Origin: Acidobacteriota bacterium
Lineage (GTDB): Bacteria > Acidobacteriota > Holophagae > Holophagales > Holophagaceae
DNA: 64,000 bases
Assembly (NCBI GenBank): GCA_016195985.1
Contig: JACPYP010000022.1
Location: 248,001-312,000, forward strand
Reading direction: 5' to 3'
Shown here: piece after piece, positions 53,140-64,000 of the stretch
Layout of the letters: the number at the start of each line of letters is the position of its first letter
How positions within the stretch are numbered: the first letter of the stretch is position 1
Notes under the pieces: model-generated
The model's input: only the letters and a program-made list of their open reading frames with translations
Told to the model about the DNA's origin: nothing
Database searches by the model: none
Made by a program: the position numbers and the translations under genes

Positions 53140-53140
<1 letters not shown>
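52556..53140 (-). CDS. exported cupin-domain protein
   Basis: A 194-residue protein with signal peptide (to about residue 29). Cupin motif 1 [22 protein letters not shown] and motif 2 [21 protein letters not shown] are both intact, so a metal is likely bound by three His and one Glu/Gln. It resembles the mandelonitrile lyase-like / quercetinase-type small cupins. The last 35 residues (after [10 protein letters not shown]) look unlike the family and may be read-through from a damaged end. ATG overlaps the upstream stop (TGATG). Confidence 0.85.
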
Positions 53141-54156
<1,016 letters not shown>

Positions 54157-54924
54157 CTAGTGGGGGCGCCTGCCGAAGACATCCTTGGCGATGGGAAGGG
54201 CCGATACGGCATGGGGCCACCCCGCGTAGAAGGCCAGGTGGGTGATGGCTTCCGTGGCCTGGGTTTCAGTCAGCCCGAAGTCCATCGCCCGGTTGAGGTG
54301 GTTCGAGAAGGGGCCAAGCTGGCCTGATGCGACCAGGGAACTGATCGTGATCAGGCTCCGGTCCCTGGGCGCCAGCGCAGGCCGCAGCCACAGGTCCTGA
54401 AACAAAAGATCGTTGGTGAAATGCAAAAGGCCGGGAAATTCTGGACCGATGGCGCGCTGGGTGTTCACGACCCGCGTGGCTTCCGCCGTCGCATCCACAG
54501 GCAAGTGCGGCCCTGCGGCGGGAGGAAGCTGAGCGGCGGTGATCCGGCGACGCACAAACACTGGCTCTGCCACATTCACGGCCGCCATGGCGTTGCCCCA
54601 CCCCGAGTAGAAGGCCAGGTGGGTGATGATTTCCGAAATCTCCTGGGGTTTCACACCCTCCTCCAGCGCCAGGTCGAGGTAGAAGGCCAACTCGGCGGTC
54701 TGGTTGCGGGTGATCAGGGTGGCCAGGGTCACGAGGCAGCGGTCCCGACGGGAGAGCCCGGGACGCTTCCATAGATCGCCGAACAGGGCGTTCCGGGTGT
54801 AGGCCTCCAAAGCAGGCGAGACTCGACTCAAGGCCGCCCCGGCCCTGATCTGGTCCTGGGTCCCCTGGGCCGCGAAGGCAGTTGCCGCGACCAGGGCCAT
54901 CAGGGATGCGGTCCAAGGTTTCAT
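54157..54924 (-). CDS. exported carboxymuconolactone decarboxylase-like protein, duplicated domain
   Basis: A 255-residue protein with a signal peptide (ends AFAAQ) and two CMD-type halves (RRDRCLVTLATLITRN ... EISEIITHLAFYSGWGNAMAA; PRDRSLITISSLVASGQ ... ATEAITHLAFYAGWPHAVSA). The AhpD CxxC pair is absent, so a peroxidase role is unlikely. Members often accompany AraC and AKR genes. GGAGGTTGAAC precedes the ATG at 54924. Biochemical role unknown. Confidence 0.87.
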   Translation of the reverse strand: MKPWTASLMALVAATAFAAQGTQDQIRAGAALSRVSPALEAYTRNALFGDLWKRPGLSRRDRCLVTLATLITRNQTAELAFYLDLALEEGVKPQEISEIITHLAFYSGWGNAMAAVNVAEPVFVRRRITAAQLPPAAGPHLPVDATAEATRVVNTQRAIGPEFPGLLHFTNDLLFQDLWLRPALAPRDRSLITISSLVASGQLGPFSNHLNRAMDFGLTETQATEAITHLAFYAGWPHAVSALPIAKDVFGRRPH

Positions 54925-54960
54925 GTTCAACCTCCAAAGGATTGAATGATCCGTGGCTGT

Positions 54961-56181
<1,221 letters not shown>

Positions 56182-57264
56182 TCAGTCCAAGCGTTTTTTC
56201 TTGAAGAAGACGGTCATCTGCTCGGCGATGTCCCGGTTGTTCAGGTCTGAGAACAGGAAGTGCGTGTTTCCCCGGATCCCGATCTCCGGCAGATGCACGA
56301 CCGTGACATCCCCACCATGCCGGTTCACGGCATCGCGCCAGAGCCGGGCCATCTTCAGCCTCACCCGCCAGTTGTCCTGGCCTGGGAAGTCTGTGGGCTG
56401 ATCAGGGATGTTGTCCCCGTAGAACAGGACGATGGGGATCTTGGTCAACGGCAGGAACTGTTTCAGGGGGATGGCCACCCCCTCCAGTGGCCCAGCCGAA
56501 CTGGGCATAGCCGGAGGGACTTCTCCTTCGGGGAACATGAACCCGGATCCGGGTTCGAAGGCAACGATGCCGCGGACATTCGCGCTCTTCATGGCGGTCA
56601 GCCATCCTGGCCCACCTCCCTGCGAATGGGTCACCAGAATCCCGGGTCCCGTCTTGGTGAAGAGCGCCGACATGGCATCTGAGATCACGTCCATGTCGAA
56701 GGGCCCCGCATTTGGCACCATCTGCCTGAAGAACTGGTTCAATGCCTCGGGATCCTGCGAAAACTGGACCCCCGGGTAGAGGTTGGGCCATGTCCCCAGG
56801 CGGAAGAGGTTGAACCAGGTTTGTTCATCAGGGGTCGCATGGATCGTGAAGGACTGCGTGCTCCGCGAGGCACCCCCACGTCGAGGCTGGTCGACGAGGT
56901 ACACCGAATAGCTCTGCCGCAGCATCAACTCCCGAAAACCCTCACGGCCATCGGGAGTTGTCTCCCAAGTCTTCGAGAACTGCCCGGCCCCGTGCAGGAA
57001 CACCAGGGGAAGGGGACGCGGCTTGACTGGTATTTGATAGGAAACGTAGGCATGGTCGCCATGGAGGGTCTGGCCCTCGGGGCCTGGCTTGTGGGGGTTG
57101 AAGGTCCCCGGATGACCGGTAACCGTTCCACCCACGGCGAAACTGCCCTGGCGCTGTATCACCAGCGGTTTGCCTCCGTCCGATGCCCCAGAGATGGCAA
57201 CGGGTGACCAGAGCGCCATCATGCCAAACACAGCCCGTTGCAGGAGTCCGATGCTGAGTGCCAT
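56182..57264 (-). CDS. exported alpha/beta hydrolase
   Basis: A 360-residue protein with a signal peptide at about 1-27 (MALSIGLLQRAVFGMMALW...). Oxyanion HG in LVFLHGAGQ; the nucleophile elbow is THSQGGGPG, Ser probably near residue 213; a His near the end in GIRGNTHFLF. Likely a periplasmic esterase/lipase-like enzyme. It sits between two other island enzymes with no overlap. Substrate unknown. Confidence 0.87.
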   Translation of the reverse strand: MALSIGLLQRAVFGMMALWSPVAISGASDGGKPLVIQRQGSFAVGGTVTGHPGTFNPHKPGPEGQTLHGDHAYVSYQIPVKPRPLPLVFLHGAGQFSKTWETTPDGREGFRELMLRQSYSVYLVDQPRRGGASRSTQSFTIHATPDEQTWFNLFRLGTWPNLYPGVQFSQDPEALNQFFRQMVPNAGPFDMDVISDAMSALFTKTGPGILVTHSQGGGPGWLTAMKSANVRGIVAFEPGSGFMFPEGEVPPAMPSSAGPLEGVAIPLKQFLPLTKIPIVLFYGDNIPDQPTDFPGQDNWRVRLKMARLWRDAVNRHGGDVTVVHLPEIGIRGNTHFLFSDLNNRDIAEQMTVFFKKKRLD

Positions 57265-57280
57265 GACCTGATCCCTCCTT

Positions 57281-58300
57281 CTACTTGAGCGCCTTGCCGA
57301 AGAACGCCTTGAGCTTCATGACCACGCCGGGAACGAACTCCGGTTTGTAGTAGAGATCGATGTGGGAAGCCCCGGGAACCATGAACAGTTCCCGCGGTTC
57401 CTTCGCCTTGTGGTAGGCGGCCTGGCTCATGAAGAGCGTGTCAGCCTTGGAACCGGCCACGAGCAGGATCGGGCGCGGCGAGATGGTTTCCATCTGCTCG
57501 AACGGGAAGAAGGCCATCTGAAAGCCCAGGCTCGTGAAGGCGTACTTCCCCGTGGAATGGGGATGGCGGGCAATCTTCATGTAGTAGTCGTAGCCCTCCC
57601 GGTAGGTCACAGAGGGATTGGCTGCGGCCTCTGCATCCGATTCCGGCAGGAATGAGATGTAGCGGACCGGTTCACCTCTGGCTTCCCGACTGCGCTGCTG
57701 GGCGATCTCCTCCAGACGCTTCATCCGGGTTTCGAAGGAAATCGTGCCGCCCACGCCTTCTCGGCGCGCGGTGCCCACATCGAAGGTGCTGATGCCTGCG
57801 GCTGCCTTGATCCGGTGCTCCGTCTGGGCAGCATTCATGGTGTACCCGCCGCCCGCGCAGATGCCCAAGGCACCGATGCGTTGGGCATCCACTTGGGGAT
57901 GGTTGCTGAGGTAGTCCACCGCGCATCGGATGTCTTCCACACGGTCCGTAGGAACCTCTGCCTGGCGTGGCTCACCCCCGCTTTCGCCGTAGTGGCTGGC
58001 ATCGAAGGCCAGGGTGATGAAGCCCTGCTCCGCCAGTTTCTGCGCATACAGGCCAGCAGCCTGCTCCTTGACTCCACCGAAGGGGTGGGTCACCACAATG
58101 GCTGGATGCTTTTTGGTCCTGTCGAGGTTGGCCGGCAGGAATAGATTCCCGACCATTCTCACGCTGTGGTGTGGGAATGAAACCTTCTGCACGGTTACGT
58201 CTCCATGGATGTTGCTTCCCGCAGCCTGCAACCTTGCAGCAAGTCCGACCAACAAAAGCGCGAGGGCCATTCCGATGGATCTTGAGACGGATTGACCCAT
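57281..58300 (-). CDS. alpha/beta hydrolase with GxCxG nucleophile (dienelactone hydrolase-like)
   Basis: A 339-residue protein with N-terminal signal or anchor (SIGMALALLLVGLAARLQAAG). The nucleophile elbow reads GICAGGGY, i.e. Cys as in dienelactone hydrolases, rather than Ser; the acidic residue is probably in LLVAGSKAD and His in ASHIDLYYKPE. Start at 58300, with AGGGGG before it. Export suggests periplasmic action. Substrate unknown. Confidence 0.86.
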   Translation of the reverse strand: MGQSVSRSIGMALALLLVGLAARLQAAGSNIHGDVTVQKVSFPHHSVRMVGNLFLPANLDRTKKHPAIVVTHPFGGVKEQAAGLYAQKLAEQGFITLAFDASHYGESGGEPRQAEVPTDRVEDIRCAVDYLSNHPQVDAQRIGALGICAGGGYTMNAAQTEHRIKAAAGISTFDVGTARREGVGGTISFETRMKRLEEIAQQRSREARGEPVRYISFLPESDAEAAANPSVTYREGYDYYMKIARHPHSTGKYAFTSLGFQMAFFPFEQMETISPRPILLVAGSKADTLFMSQAAYHKAKEPRELFMVPGASHIDLYYKPEFVPGVVMKLKAFFGKALK

Positions 58301-58327
58301 GAGCCCCCTGGTTGACCAGAATGATGA

Positions 58328-59926
<1,599 letters not shown>

Positions 59927-60488: not shown

Positions 60489-60851
60489 TCGCCCCTTGAG
60501 CAATCAGGGGACCTTTTGTTTTTATCCGGCATCTACTTTCAAGCCCTGGCGTCAAAAATTGTTACGGCTTTCTGTGGAGATTGTTGCAGGCGCGTGGCCT
60601 TGGCGACCCTCGCGCAAGCGATGGCTGCCGATAAAATCAATGCCCCATTCTTTTTCTCAGAGGAGTAGTTTTCTTCGAGGAGATCATCACTTCATTGGTG
60701 GGTGCGGCCAGAAACCGCAGGCATGGAAGCAGTCGGGCCGCTGTTTCGTTGTGGATTGACACCATTCCGCCTGGAGGCGCCCGATGCCCTTTGCAGCTCT
60801 CAACTTGTTGTTTCAACATCATAGGGATGACTTGCATGAAGGGGGGCTTTC
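60489..60851. other. intergenic region after the att copy
   Basis: Contains the degenerate terminator hairpin CCCCTTGA-GCAA-TCAGGGGA then CTTTTGTTTTT (60492-60524), matching the one after the tRNA. The rest, up to the otsA start, shows no gene I can support; it should hold the otsA promoter, but I cannot place it with confidence. Confidence 0.6.
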
Positions 60852-63083
60852 GTGAGGCTATCTTTACGCTTCATCCTGCCTTTGATTCTTGTCCTGGCGG
60901 GGATCGCCTACGGCATCGCCCCACTCGTCGACCAGTTGACGCTCCGTTGGTTCATCCGGGATCTGAACAGCCGCTCGACTGCAATCGCCAACGCCATCCA
61001 AGAGCCGCTGTTGGAGCAGCTTGCAGCGGGGAAAAGAGCCAAGACGGAGGAGTTCTTCAGCCGGATCACCCAGGACGAGCGGTTATTCGCCATCGGCTAT
61101 TGCGACTCGTCTACAGGCAAAATGCTGGCCAGCCGCTCGCTCCCCGCCGAGATCCATTGCAGCGATCTCGACCGTTGGCAACTCCCCCAGGGGCACTTGC
61201 TGACCAGCATCCATGGCCCCCTGCACGTCACGGTAAGGCCCTTGGCCAGCGAGAGCGCACCGGACGGGCAGTTGGTTCTCGTGCACGACATGAGTTTCAT
61301 CTCCCGGCGCACGGAAGAAACCAAACGCTACGTGTTCTATTTCTTCATGGCCTTGGCTGGTGTGGTGTCGCTCATCACCGTCGTCATCGCCCAACTCTCC
61401 TGGCGCGGTTGGATGGCCGGCATGAGGTCGCTCCTGCGAGGCGAAGGGCTGCTGCGCAAGCCCTCGGGCGGAGCGCAGGCTCCCCTTCCCGGGTTCAAAC
61501 CGATCGCCCGCGATCTGCAAAGGTTGATCCAGGAGCTGGAATCAGAAAGCCGGGCCCGGGATGAATCCCAGATCACCTGGACCCCGGAGGCCTTGCGCAC
61601 CATTCTCCATTCCGAGCTGAGCGGCGAGGATGTCATCGTCGTTTCCAACCGCGAACCTTATATCCACCAGCACCACGGCGAGCGGATCGAAGTTTCGAGA
61701 CCGGCCAGCGGGCTGGTCACGGCGCTCGAACCGATCATGCGGGCCTGCTCGGGCACTTGGATCGCCCACGGCAGTGGTTCGGCCGACAAGGCGGTCGTCG
61801 ACAAGAACGACTGCATCCGGGTGCCGCCGGAACGGCCAGCCTATCAACTCCGCCGGGTCTGGTTGAGCCCGGAAGAGGAGGCCGGCTACTACTACGGTTT
61901 TTCCAATGAAGGGATGTGGCCCCTCTGCCATATCGCCCACGTGCGGCCGACCTTCCGGTCGAGCGACTGGGCCCAATACGTGGCGGTCAACCGCAAATTC
62001 GCCGAAGCCGTGGCGAGTGAAGCCAAGACCAAGACCCCCATCGTCCTGGTCCAGGACTACCACTTCGCCCTGCTTCCCAAGATGATCCGGGAAGCGCTCC
62101 CCGACGCCACCATCATCACCTTCTGGCACATTCCCTGGCCCAACCCCGAATCCTTTGCCATTTGTCCATGGCGGAACGACATCCTGGCCGGGATGCTGGG
62201 CAGCAGCATCATGGGGTTCCATACCCAGTTCCACTGCAACAATTTTGTCGACACGGTGGATCGCTTCATTGAGGCCCGGGTCGACCGGGAATCCTTCACG
62301 GTCTCCTGCGGAGGCAAGCTCACCGCCGTGCGGCGGTATCCCATTTCCATCGCCTGGCCCCCGGAAGCCGACATGCTGCGGGAATCCATTCCGGACTGCC
62401 GCAACCGGATCCGCGATCTGAACGGCCTTCCACTCGATCACAAGGTCGGCATTGGCGTCGACCGGCTGGACTACACCAAAGGGATTGTGGAGCGTTTCCG
62501 GGCCATCGAGCGCCTTCTGGAATTGAATCCGGATTGGATTGGCCGCTTCACCTTTGTCCAGGTGGCCGCTCCAAGCCGGTCGGGCATCGACGAGTACCAG
62601 CATCACGAGACCCAGGTGCGGGCCATGGCCACGCGCATCAACGGCCGCTTCGAGAATCAGGGGCCGCCTCCCATCAAGCTCAGGATCGAACATCACGAAC
62701 CACAGGCGGTCTATGAGTATTTCCGCGCTGCCGATCTTTGTTTCGTGAGCAGCCTGCACGATGGCATGAACCTGGTTGCCAAAGAATTCGTGGCGGCCCG
62801 CGACGACGAGCGCGGTGTCCTCATCCTTTCCGAGTTCACGGGCGCCGCGAGGGAACTGCCCGAAGCGCTGATCGTCAACCCCTACGATGCCGACCAGTGC
62901 GCGGCCGCCATGCACCTGGCCCTCACGATGCCGGCCACCGAGCAGCGCGATCGCATGCGCCTGATGCGCGGATTGGTTGCGGAATTCAATGTGTTCCGCT
63001 GGGCCGGCCGCATGTTGCTCGATGCCGCCTCTATGCGCAGGCGGGGCCGCCTGGCGGAAAAGACGGAACGCGGGGGGATGTGA
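60852..63083 (+). CDS. otsA: trehalose-6-phosphate synthase with N-terminal membrane sensor-like domain
   Basis: GT20 enzyme making trehalose-6-phosphate from UDP-glucose and glucose-6-phosphate. It has 743 residues, about 250 more than typical OtsA. Residues 1-27 and about 160-185 are transmembrane helices around an extracytoplasmic loop of about 130 residues, followed by a linker; the GT20 domain runs from about 255 (VVSNREPY) with [40 protein letters not shown] and [16 protein letters not shown] start, with AAGGGGGG upstream. It starts an otsA-otsB-GH15 operon. Membrane tethering may couple synthesis to an external signal such as osmolarity (inference). Confidence 0.94.
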
Positions 63084-63085
63084 CG

Positions 63086-63829
63086 ATGCGCCAGGCATTT
63101 CCACCCGAAGCGCGCGCGGATTGGGCCTATTTCCTGGATGTCGATGGAACCTTGATCGACTTTGCCGATCGACCGGACGCCATTCAAGTCGATGCCGCGC
63201 TGCTCGACCTGATCGCGCATCTCCATCGGGCCAGCGGAGGCGCCGTGGCCCTTGTCACCGGCCGGTCCTTGTCCGACCTTGAACGGCATCTCGGTTCTCT
63301 GCGCTTGCCCCTGGCCGGACAGCAGGGCCTCGAAAGGCGCGATGCGACCGGCCGCCTTTGGATTCACGCGGGCCCCCCCGCCGCAAAGGCCTCCATCAAG
63401 GCGGCATTGGCCCCCACACTCGCCGGCCACTCCGGCCTCCTGCTGGAAGACAAAGGGCTGACGCTCGCATTGCACTACCGCCAGGCGCCGCACCTGGCCG
63501 CCTATGTGCACCGGGTGATGAAAGCCCTGGCTCGTTCCAAAGGCCTGGGCCTGGAGCTCCAGCTCGGCAAGTGCGTGGTGGAACTGAAGCCCGCTGGCAT
63601 CGACAAAGGGACGGCAGTGGCCGAATACCTCGCAGAACCTCCTTTCGCGGGAAGGCGTCCTGTCTTCATCGGCGACGATCTCAACGATGAGCATGGGTTC
63701 GCCGAGGTCAACAAGCTTGATGGCGTTTCAATCAAGGTGGGAAAGGGATCCAGTTGCGCCCGGTTTCGCCTGCCCGATGTGACCGCGGTGCGCCATTGGC
63801 TGGGCATCGCGCTGAGAGGTCTGCCGTGA
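63086..63829 (+). CDS. otsB: trehalose-6-phosphate phosphatase
   Basis: A 247-residue HAD-type phosphatase converting trehalose-6-phosphate to trehalose. Motif I FLDVDGTLIDF (residues about 16-26), motif II VTGRSLSD, and motif IV GDDLNDEHGF, with the KPAGIDKGTAV segment carrying the motif III Lys. It follows otsA by 2 bp, with its own ATG at 63086. The stop overlaps the GTG start of the next gene. Confidence 0.95.
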   Translation: MRQAFPPEARADWAYFLDVDGTLIDFADRPDAIQVDAALLDLIAHLHRASGGAVALVTGRSLSDLERHLGSLRLPLAGQQGLERRDATGRLWIHAGPPAAKASIKAALAPTLAGHSGLLLEDKGLTLALHYRQAPHLAAYVHRVMKALARSKGLGLELQLGKCVVELKPAGIDKGTAVAEYLAEPPFAGRRPVFIGDDLNDEHGFAEVNKLDGVSIKVGKGSSCARFRLPDVTAVRHWLGIALRGLP

Positions 63830-64000
63830 AAAACCTTGATCTGGCTTTGATCGGAAATTGCGCCATCGGCGCGCTGATTGATGAACAGGCCACCGTTCTC
63901 TGGGGCTGTTTCCCCCGCTTCGATGCGGATCCGATGTTTTGCGCGCTCCTGCGGGACACCGATGACTTCGGGTATTTCGGGATTGACCTCGCGGACCGCG
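63826..64000 (+). CDS. GH15-type glucoamylase/trehalase-like protein, cut by window end
   Basis: Starts GTG overlapping the otsB stop (GTGA). The 58 visible residues begin MKNLDLALIGNCAIGALIDEQATVLWGCFPRFDADPMF, the N-terminal pattern of GH15 glucoamylase-family proteins often linked to otsAB. Function (alpha-glucan or trehalose hydrolysis) is inferred from family and operon. The rest is outside the window. Confidence 0.85.
   Translation, partial: MKNLDLALIGNCAIGALIDEQATVLWGCFPRFDADPMFCALLRDTDDFGYFGIDLADR

Follow-up and report, generated by a model that had tools for sequence, protein, structure and literature searches.

The window analyzed here (the whole 64,000-nucleotide stretch of DNA) encodes, at positions 60852..63083 of the plus strand, a 743-aa putative membrane sensor–trehalose-6-phosphate synthase, as judged from its ORF, Pfam matches and the alignment of relatives. 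We consider it probable, at roughly 60%, that this protein is an inner-membrane receptor-enzyme in which a periplasmic PDC sensor controls the cytoplasmic synthase through the membrane helices. In the proposed mechanism, the N terminus would be cytoplasmic, helix 1 would cross the membrane and about 134 residues would form a single periplasmic sensor of PDC/Cache-like fold; helix 2 would then re-enter the cytoplasm, where a two-helix HAMP-like segment followed by a linker helix would connect it to the GT20 domain. The GT20 domain would make trehalose-6-phosphate from nucleotide-glucose and glucose-6-phosphate, and OtsB, encoded alongside, would dephosphorylate this product. The input would be a periplasmic condition, be it a small ligand, an ion, redox or the envelope/osmotic state, that would alter membrane-helix packing in a dimer and thereby turn synthase activity up or down, bypassing both transcription and a phosphorelay. 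Any such control would be direct, as no kinase, receiver or phosphotransfer domain was found in the protein with Pfam, in which GT20 was the sole family above cut-off. Sensing by the loop and its control of the enzyme are what we infer, together with the dimer, the direction and nature of the signal and the catalytic activity.

If this is true, environment and metabolism would be joined by a short and fast route, from a receptor straight to the first committed enzyme in the synthesis of a major stress protectant. A switch-on of trehalose synthesis that needs no new transcription would be directly testable in relatives such as Sulfurisoma sediminicola and Paucimonas lemoignei.

Gene start and operon context

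The ORF occupies 60852..63083 exactly and begins with GTG, and a probable ribosome-binding site, AAGGGGGG (60839..60846, plus strand, read by eye), lies 5 nt 5′ of the start codon. An in-frame stop is located upstream, with four codons between it and the GTG and no start codon among them, so a longer protein is impossible. The start was then compared with those of relatives, which were the best 80 of at least 583 matching stretches and were partly chosen by N-terminal peptides, so that this set is no test for sensor-less homologues. A GT20 ORF was present in all 80 fetched loci. When the start codon nearest to the aligned start was taken, it fell exactly there in 54 of the 80 relatives and no more than 11 codons away in 79, the sole exception (L040) being a gene cut by a contig end. 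A wrong start or misannotation was therefore rejected, as the upstream stop fixes the start and the relatives' starts line up with it; a true start near residue 250, raised with the original prediction as the outcome that would undo it, was not what the locus revealed.

The synthase gene is followed by otsB (63086..63829, plus strand; ORF and Pfam), encoding a 247-aa trehalose-6-phosphate phosphatase. An alternative otsB start, a GTG at 63080, overlaps the synthase stop, so that otsB either overlaps or abuts the synthase gene. Next, a further gene begins (63826..64000, plus strand) and continues beyond the window; it encodes a GH15 protein of 592 aa whose N-terminal domain is trehalase-like. 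Among the 77 relatives whose loci left 600 bases or more to inspect, an otsB homologue was found on the same strand within 300 bases downstream in 68, elsewhere in the locus in 4 and not at all in 5. Of 73 loci with room, 28 have a GH15 gene no more than 2 kb downstream and 20 have one at another place, which makes it a common but not a constant neighbor. The source genome contains a single GT20 match, a single Trehalose_PPase match and a single sensor module. Upstream, at 53140–59340 on the minus strand, the window also carries three paralogous aldo/keto reductase-like and two α/β-hydrolase-like genes, named by eye.

A conserved N-terminal membrane module

Hydropathy, charge distribution and Pfam analysis bore out the predicted layout of about 250 extra N-terminal residues, with two membrane helices and a periplasmic loop, in front of a full GT20 domain. 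Membrane helix 1 spans residues about 8–26 (60873..60929, plus strand) and helix 2 residues about 161–179 (61332..61388, plus strand), both from hydropathy and the predicted model. The intervening residues, about 27–160 (~134 residues; 60930..61331, plus strand), form a periplasmic PDC/single-Cache-like domain according to the model and fold matches. A cytoplasmic two-helix juxtamembrane segment and linker helix follow in the model (residues about 180–257; 61389..61622, plus strand). Positive charges mark the cytoplasmic sides, with two positive and no negative residues at positions 1–7 and five positive and one negative at 181–215, compared to 16 positive and 17 negative in the loop. These flanking charges put the loop outside and the GT20 domain inside.

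No Pfam family scored above cut-off in residues 1–250, and constraint on this region was assessed from its relatives. The dN/dS of residues 1–182 was 0.08–0.28 in the 10 of 12 pairs with computable dS, values that are rough because dS exceeded 1 in all ten, and that of the GT20 domain was 0.05–0.15 in all 12 pairs. An alignment of the query with 49 of the 80 fetched relatives contained 17 invariant N-terminal columns. The N terminus is thus real, with a fixed start, purifying selection and retention by relatives across several phyla.

Conserved loop sequence, the lack of which would have told against the original prediction, was looked for in 88 sequences with the architecture of the query (type A), comprising the query, 79 of the 80 loci and eight proteins from further genomes. 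Fourteen of the 134 loop columns are near-invariant. Cys84 (61101..61103, plus strand) and Cys103 (61158..61160, plus strand), located by alignment as partners of a pair, are both kept in 86 of the 88; of the two exceptions, one is without both cysteines and the other without Cys103 alone. These losses fit a disulfide, and Cys84–Cys103 probably stabilizes the sensor of the type-A branch as such a bond. The two sensors with lost loop cysteines, L088 and L101, belong to the genus of the window.

The same pair could instead be the input itself, so that the oxidation state of the periplasm would set trehalose synthesis. Its retention in 86 of 88 and the pattern of loss are what such a redox sensor would lead one to expect, but a structural disulfide explains them equally well, and types B and C, which share the module (see below), have no such pair at these places as judged by eye. 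We regard a redox input as very improbable.

The main rival to the receptor-enzyme is a mere membrane anchor, in which the N terminus would hold the synthase at the inner membrane, for instance so that trehalose can be passed to an exporter or the synthase kept close to OtsB and the GH15 enzyme; the PDC-like loop would then be structural, having lost its sensing role. The loop is far less conserved than the enzyme (mean entropy of 1.93 bits versus 0.95 bits for GT20), and its β-sheet part is the least conserved region (2.22 bits); the latter speaks for an anchor. So does a subfamily protein of 606 aa from an Aminobacter plasmid, which came from a search of 72,556 plasmid records, 359 of which matched, with none of those listed reaching 80% coverage of the query. 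As judged by eye, this protein has a single membrane helix at its N terminus, then a short linker, and lacks a periplasmic domain, suggesting that anchoring can exist without a sensor. However, 14 near-invariant loop positions and a cysteine pair kept in 86 of 88 sequences would be unexpected for a pure anchor, as would a recognizable sensor fold kept over several phyla. We therefore judge an anchor-only role unlikely, though it deserves more weight than any other rival.

The periplasmic loop is modeled as a PDC/Cache-type fold

The predicted model had a mean pLDDT of 81.9, with 86–94 per ten-residue block in the periplasmic part from residue 21 to 150. In order, it contains a long helix that crosses the membrane and extends into the periplasm, another helix, a small β sheet and a helix back through the membrane. 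A long helix and a small β sheet between two membrane helices are the layout of a single Cache/PDC domain, and by this model the loop is a single PDC/Cache-type sensor fold. Foldseek against the PDB returned one match with E ≤ 0.001, the integrative WalK–YycH model, followed by sensor domains of chemoreceptors and kinases with E values of 1e-3 to 1e-2. The WalK–YycH model also ranked first in VIA-align (Z 11.3), and the WalK sensor domain 4ywz aligned with Z 10.8 over 123 residues at 3.2 Å, followed by erWalK (10.7), CusS (9.6), TlpB (9.6), DcuS (8.7), CitA (8.6) and PhoQ (8.3), to be read with the caution that middling Z values are frequent in this comparison, above all for helical models.

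No Cache-family or other sensor match above the Pfam cut-off was found for the N terminus of the query, and a profile of the sensor searched against PDB sequences returned one chance-level hit (E 0.095). CHASE4 was matched weakly by 7 of 50 type-A members (best E 0.0016), sCache_3_2 by two of eight type-B members (best 27.2 bits, cut-off 28.4) and dCache_1, again weakly, by all four type-C members (best 20.6 bits, cut-off 45). A Pfam match to Adeno_E3B (15.6 bits, cut-off 25), which recurred at E 0.1 in 35 of 50 type-A members, was rejected as a resemblance between membrane helices.

Past membrane helix 2, the model places two cytoplasmic helices, one up to residue 195 and the other at 216–241. 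Their position and two-helix shape fit HAMP, but the HAMP profile of Pfam matched neither the query nor any of 50 type-A, eight type-B and four type-C members, and the segment is therefore termed HAMP-like only. Residues 186–218 of the full-length model have a pLDDT below 50, so that the coupling path is invisible in it.

The GT20 domain retains the substrate contacts of OtsA

The GT20 domain (residues 260–722; 61629..63017, plus strand), identified with Pfam and by alignment to OtsA, matched PF00982 with 385.8 bits (cut-off 32.5, E 3.6e-115) over profile positions 2–468 of 473. It was aligned to the E. coli K-12 OtsA sequence; as OtsA literature numbers omit the first Met, residues were matched with a one-residue shift. 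The contacts that we take to bind substrate in OtsA (mature numbering) are R9, G22, W40, Y76, W85, D130, H154, R262, K267, R300, D361 and E369. Their equivalents in the query are R267, G287, W303, Y347, W356, D402, H426, R538, K543, R576, D637 and E645, so that in the alignment all of these presumed contacts for UDP-glucose and glucose-6-phosphate are kept.

The subfamily has an active-site signature of its own, NREPYxH, AHGSG, WHIPWPN and SLHDGMN, in which AHGSG replaces the GWxG of OtsA, WHIPWP replaces LHIPFP and SLHDGMN replaces PLRDGMN. Scores against NCBIfam models fell below the equivalog cut-offs, at 402 of 564.85 for TIGR02400 and 473.2 of 634 for PRK14501, and by the former the query is not filed under the OtsA equivalog. 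Both these scores and the changes beside the active site would be in keeping with another acceptor or donor, in which case the protein would be a sensor-coupled glycosyltransferase of a different pathway. We find this improbable, since the presumed OtsA contacts are all kept, the glucosylglycerol-phosphate synthase model scored lower (297.8 of 569), 68 of 77 loci have otsB next to the gene and the only Trehalose_PPase match of the genome is this otsB. The kept substrate residues together with the otsB adjacency make trehalose-6-phosphate synthesis the likely activity of the GT20 domain, as far as sequence comparison can indicate.

Comparison with known sensors and synthases

In bacteria, the usual outputs of transmembrane sensors are kinases, chemotaxis proteins or second-messenger enzymes. 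The query shares with WalK, CitA, DcuS, PhoQ and CusS both the sensor fold and the layout of helix, periplasmic PDC domain and helix, but whereas the output of sensors of this type is a kinase, chemotaxis or second-messenger domain, that of the query is a biosynthetic glycosyltransferase. With E. coli OtsA it shares the GT20 domain, the kept substrate residues and an otsB operon partner; unlike the query, OtsA has no such N-terminal part, and the query lies on a separate branch (SH-aLRT 99) and below the OtsA equivalog cut-off.

No description of a sensor-fused trehalose-6-phosphate synthase was found among the open-access literature matches listed. The passages of the G. metallireducens genome paper that concern these genes call GSU2337 of Geobacter sulfurreducens a trehalose-6-phosphate synthase whose domain is 37% identical to the M. 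tuberculosis enzyme and name GSU2336 as the phosphatase that goes with it (PMC2700814). Those passages mention neither a membrane part nor sensing (PMC2700814). The fetched Geobacter relatives L051 and L055 have the full type-A architecture.

Distribution and architectures of the subfamily

The original prediction had called the coupling of an outside signal to trehalose synthesis an unusual design; it proved widespread rather than singular, with relatives in several phyla and 22 of 46 matches in the window's own phylum. The best 80 relatives share 55–83% identity with the query in their best segments, and nearly all matches span almost its whole length. They include Beta- and Deltaproteobacteria, Nitrospira, Gemmatimonadetes, Bdellovibrionota/Oligoflexia, Geobacter, Smithella and Acidobacteria; Sulfurisoma sediminicola (L003) is 81% and Paucimonas lemoignei (L063) 57% identical. 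A sensor–synthase design common to many bacteria suggests that trehalose production may be adjusted directly in response to a cue from outside the cell.

To survey the phylum of the window, a profile of the GT20 subfamily was run on 199 of its genomes. The phylum is taken to be Acidobacteriota, since the GT20 domains of G199, from the same family as the window, and G161, from the same phylum, are identical to those of L018 and L028, which are titled Acidobacteria. Matches with E of 1e-60 or better occurred in 74 genomes (86 matches listed), and the 46 above a score gap from 492.6 to 399.6 bits were taken as the subfamily. Classified by ORF limits, hydropathy, alignment and Pfam, 22 of these have a sensor hairpin, 8 have an antiporter-like domain and the other 16 are without any membrane module. 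The last assignment rests on ORF limits, with no more than 107 residues before GT20; among the 16, L122, which may be frameshifted, is missing residues 1–50 of GT20, and in L120 a possible upstream extension contains one hydrophobic stretch. With 16 of 46 members lacking a membrane module, the enzyme does not need one.

The 22 sensor hairpins fall into type A (ten, as in the query), type B (eight) and type C (four). Homology covers the whole module between types A and B (244 columns, E 8e-20, hhalign probability 99.2) and between types B and C (255 columns, E 1.5e-32, 99.9); types A and C align over only 182 columns, to the end of membrane helix 2 (E 8e-11, 97.0). A search with the type-A module gave 20 matches in 17 of the 199 genomes, 19 of them inside GT20 ORFs, and a type-A module with another output was not found among the 20; this search missed 3 of the 22 known sensor modules and scored no more than 13 candidates per genome among those listed. 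The twentieth match (L171:1148-2406, contig 346 of genome G057) is a decayed copy from which most of GT20 is missing. Its 234-aa sensor hairpin ORF ends after membrane helix 2 and overlaps an otsB-like frame, and an antiporter-like gene is seen by eye nearby on the opposite strand.

Antiporter–GT20 fusions

In eight proteins (L127, L129–L133, L135 and L138), the GT20 subfamily domain lies in one reading frame behind a cation/proton-antiporter-like membrane domain. Na_H_Exchanger (PF00999) was found in all six members scanned (66.7–81.7 bits, cut-off 26.2); the remaining two align with these six, and all eight have 10–11 hydrophobic segments. An intramembrane Asp is typical of such antiporters. 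In L132 and L135 this conserved residue is Gln, so that some of the modules may be sensors rather than transporters. The fusion shares with the query a GT20 domain of the same subfamily behind an N-terminal membrane module, but its input is a 10–11-segment Na_H_Exchanger domain instead of a sensor hairpin and it occupies a separate tree branch. It is a second architecture, perhaps more striking than the sensor hairpin, and would join ion transport or ion sensing to compatible-solute synthesis in one polypeptide. A search of the open-access literature, made without the name of the exchanger family, yielded no description of an antiporter-fused trehalose-6-phosphate synthase among the matches listed.

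An antiporter-like module in another branch suggests membrane input as a recurring theme. More broadly, and as a tentative idea to which we give somewhat less than even odds, the GT20 subfamily may consist of membrane-input osmolyte synthases with interchangeable modules, a PDC/Cache hairpin or an antiporter, that place trehalose-6-phosphate synthesis under direct post-translational control by periplasmic chemistry or by ion or proton movement. As antiporter genes occur in the fetched flanks of only 5 of the 80 type-A loci, we claim no linkage between the two.

Phylogeny of the GT20 domain and horizontal transfer

A quick maximum-likelihood tree, in which 18 of 75 inner branches remained open, was built from 78 GT20 domains out of 134 distinct ones and one plasmid protein. 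The subfamily separated from eight standard OtsA-like proteins (SH-aLRT 99). The antiporter forms made up one branch with two module-free proteins (99); inspection by eye revealed no antiporter gene next to the genes of these two. Types B and C grouped together (92), along with L122. Type A grouped (96) with three module-free entries and the single-helix form from Aminobacter, all on long or fairly long branches, and did not form one clean side of any branch (two changes). Homologues without the N terminus, which could have spoken against the original prediction, thus do exist (16 of 46), but they belong mostly to other branches and are not truncated close relatives of the query.

Within type A, the window protein lies with Betaproteobacteria and with L096 and L098, from two other species of its genus, and G006 and G011, two more species of that genus, carry a copy that groups with Geobacter. 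Any GT20 was present in only 6 of 36 sampled genomes of this genus. Patchiness and at least two origins within the genus point to horizontal transfer, which probably took place more than once.
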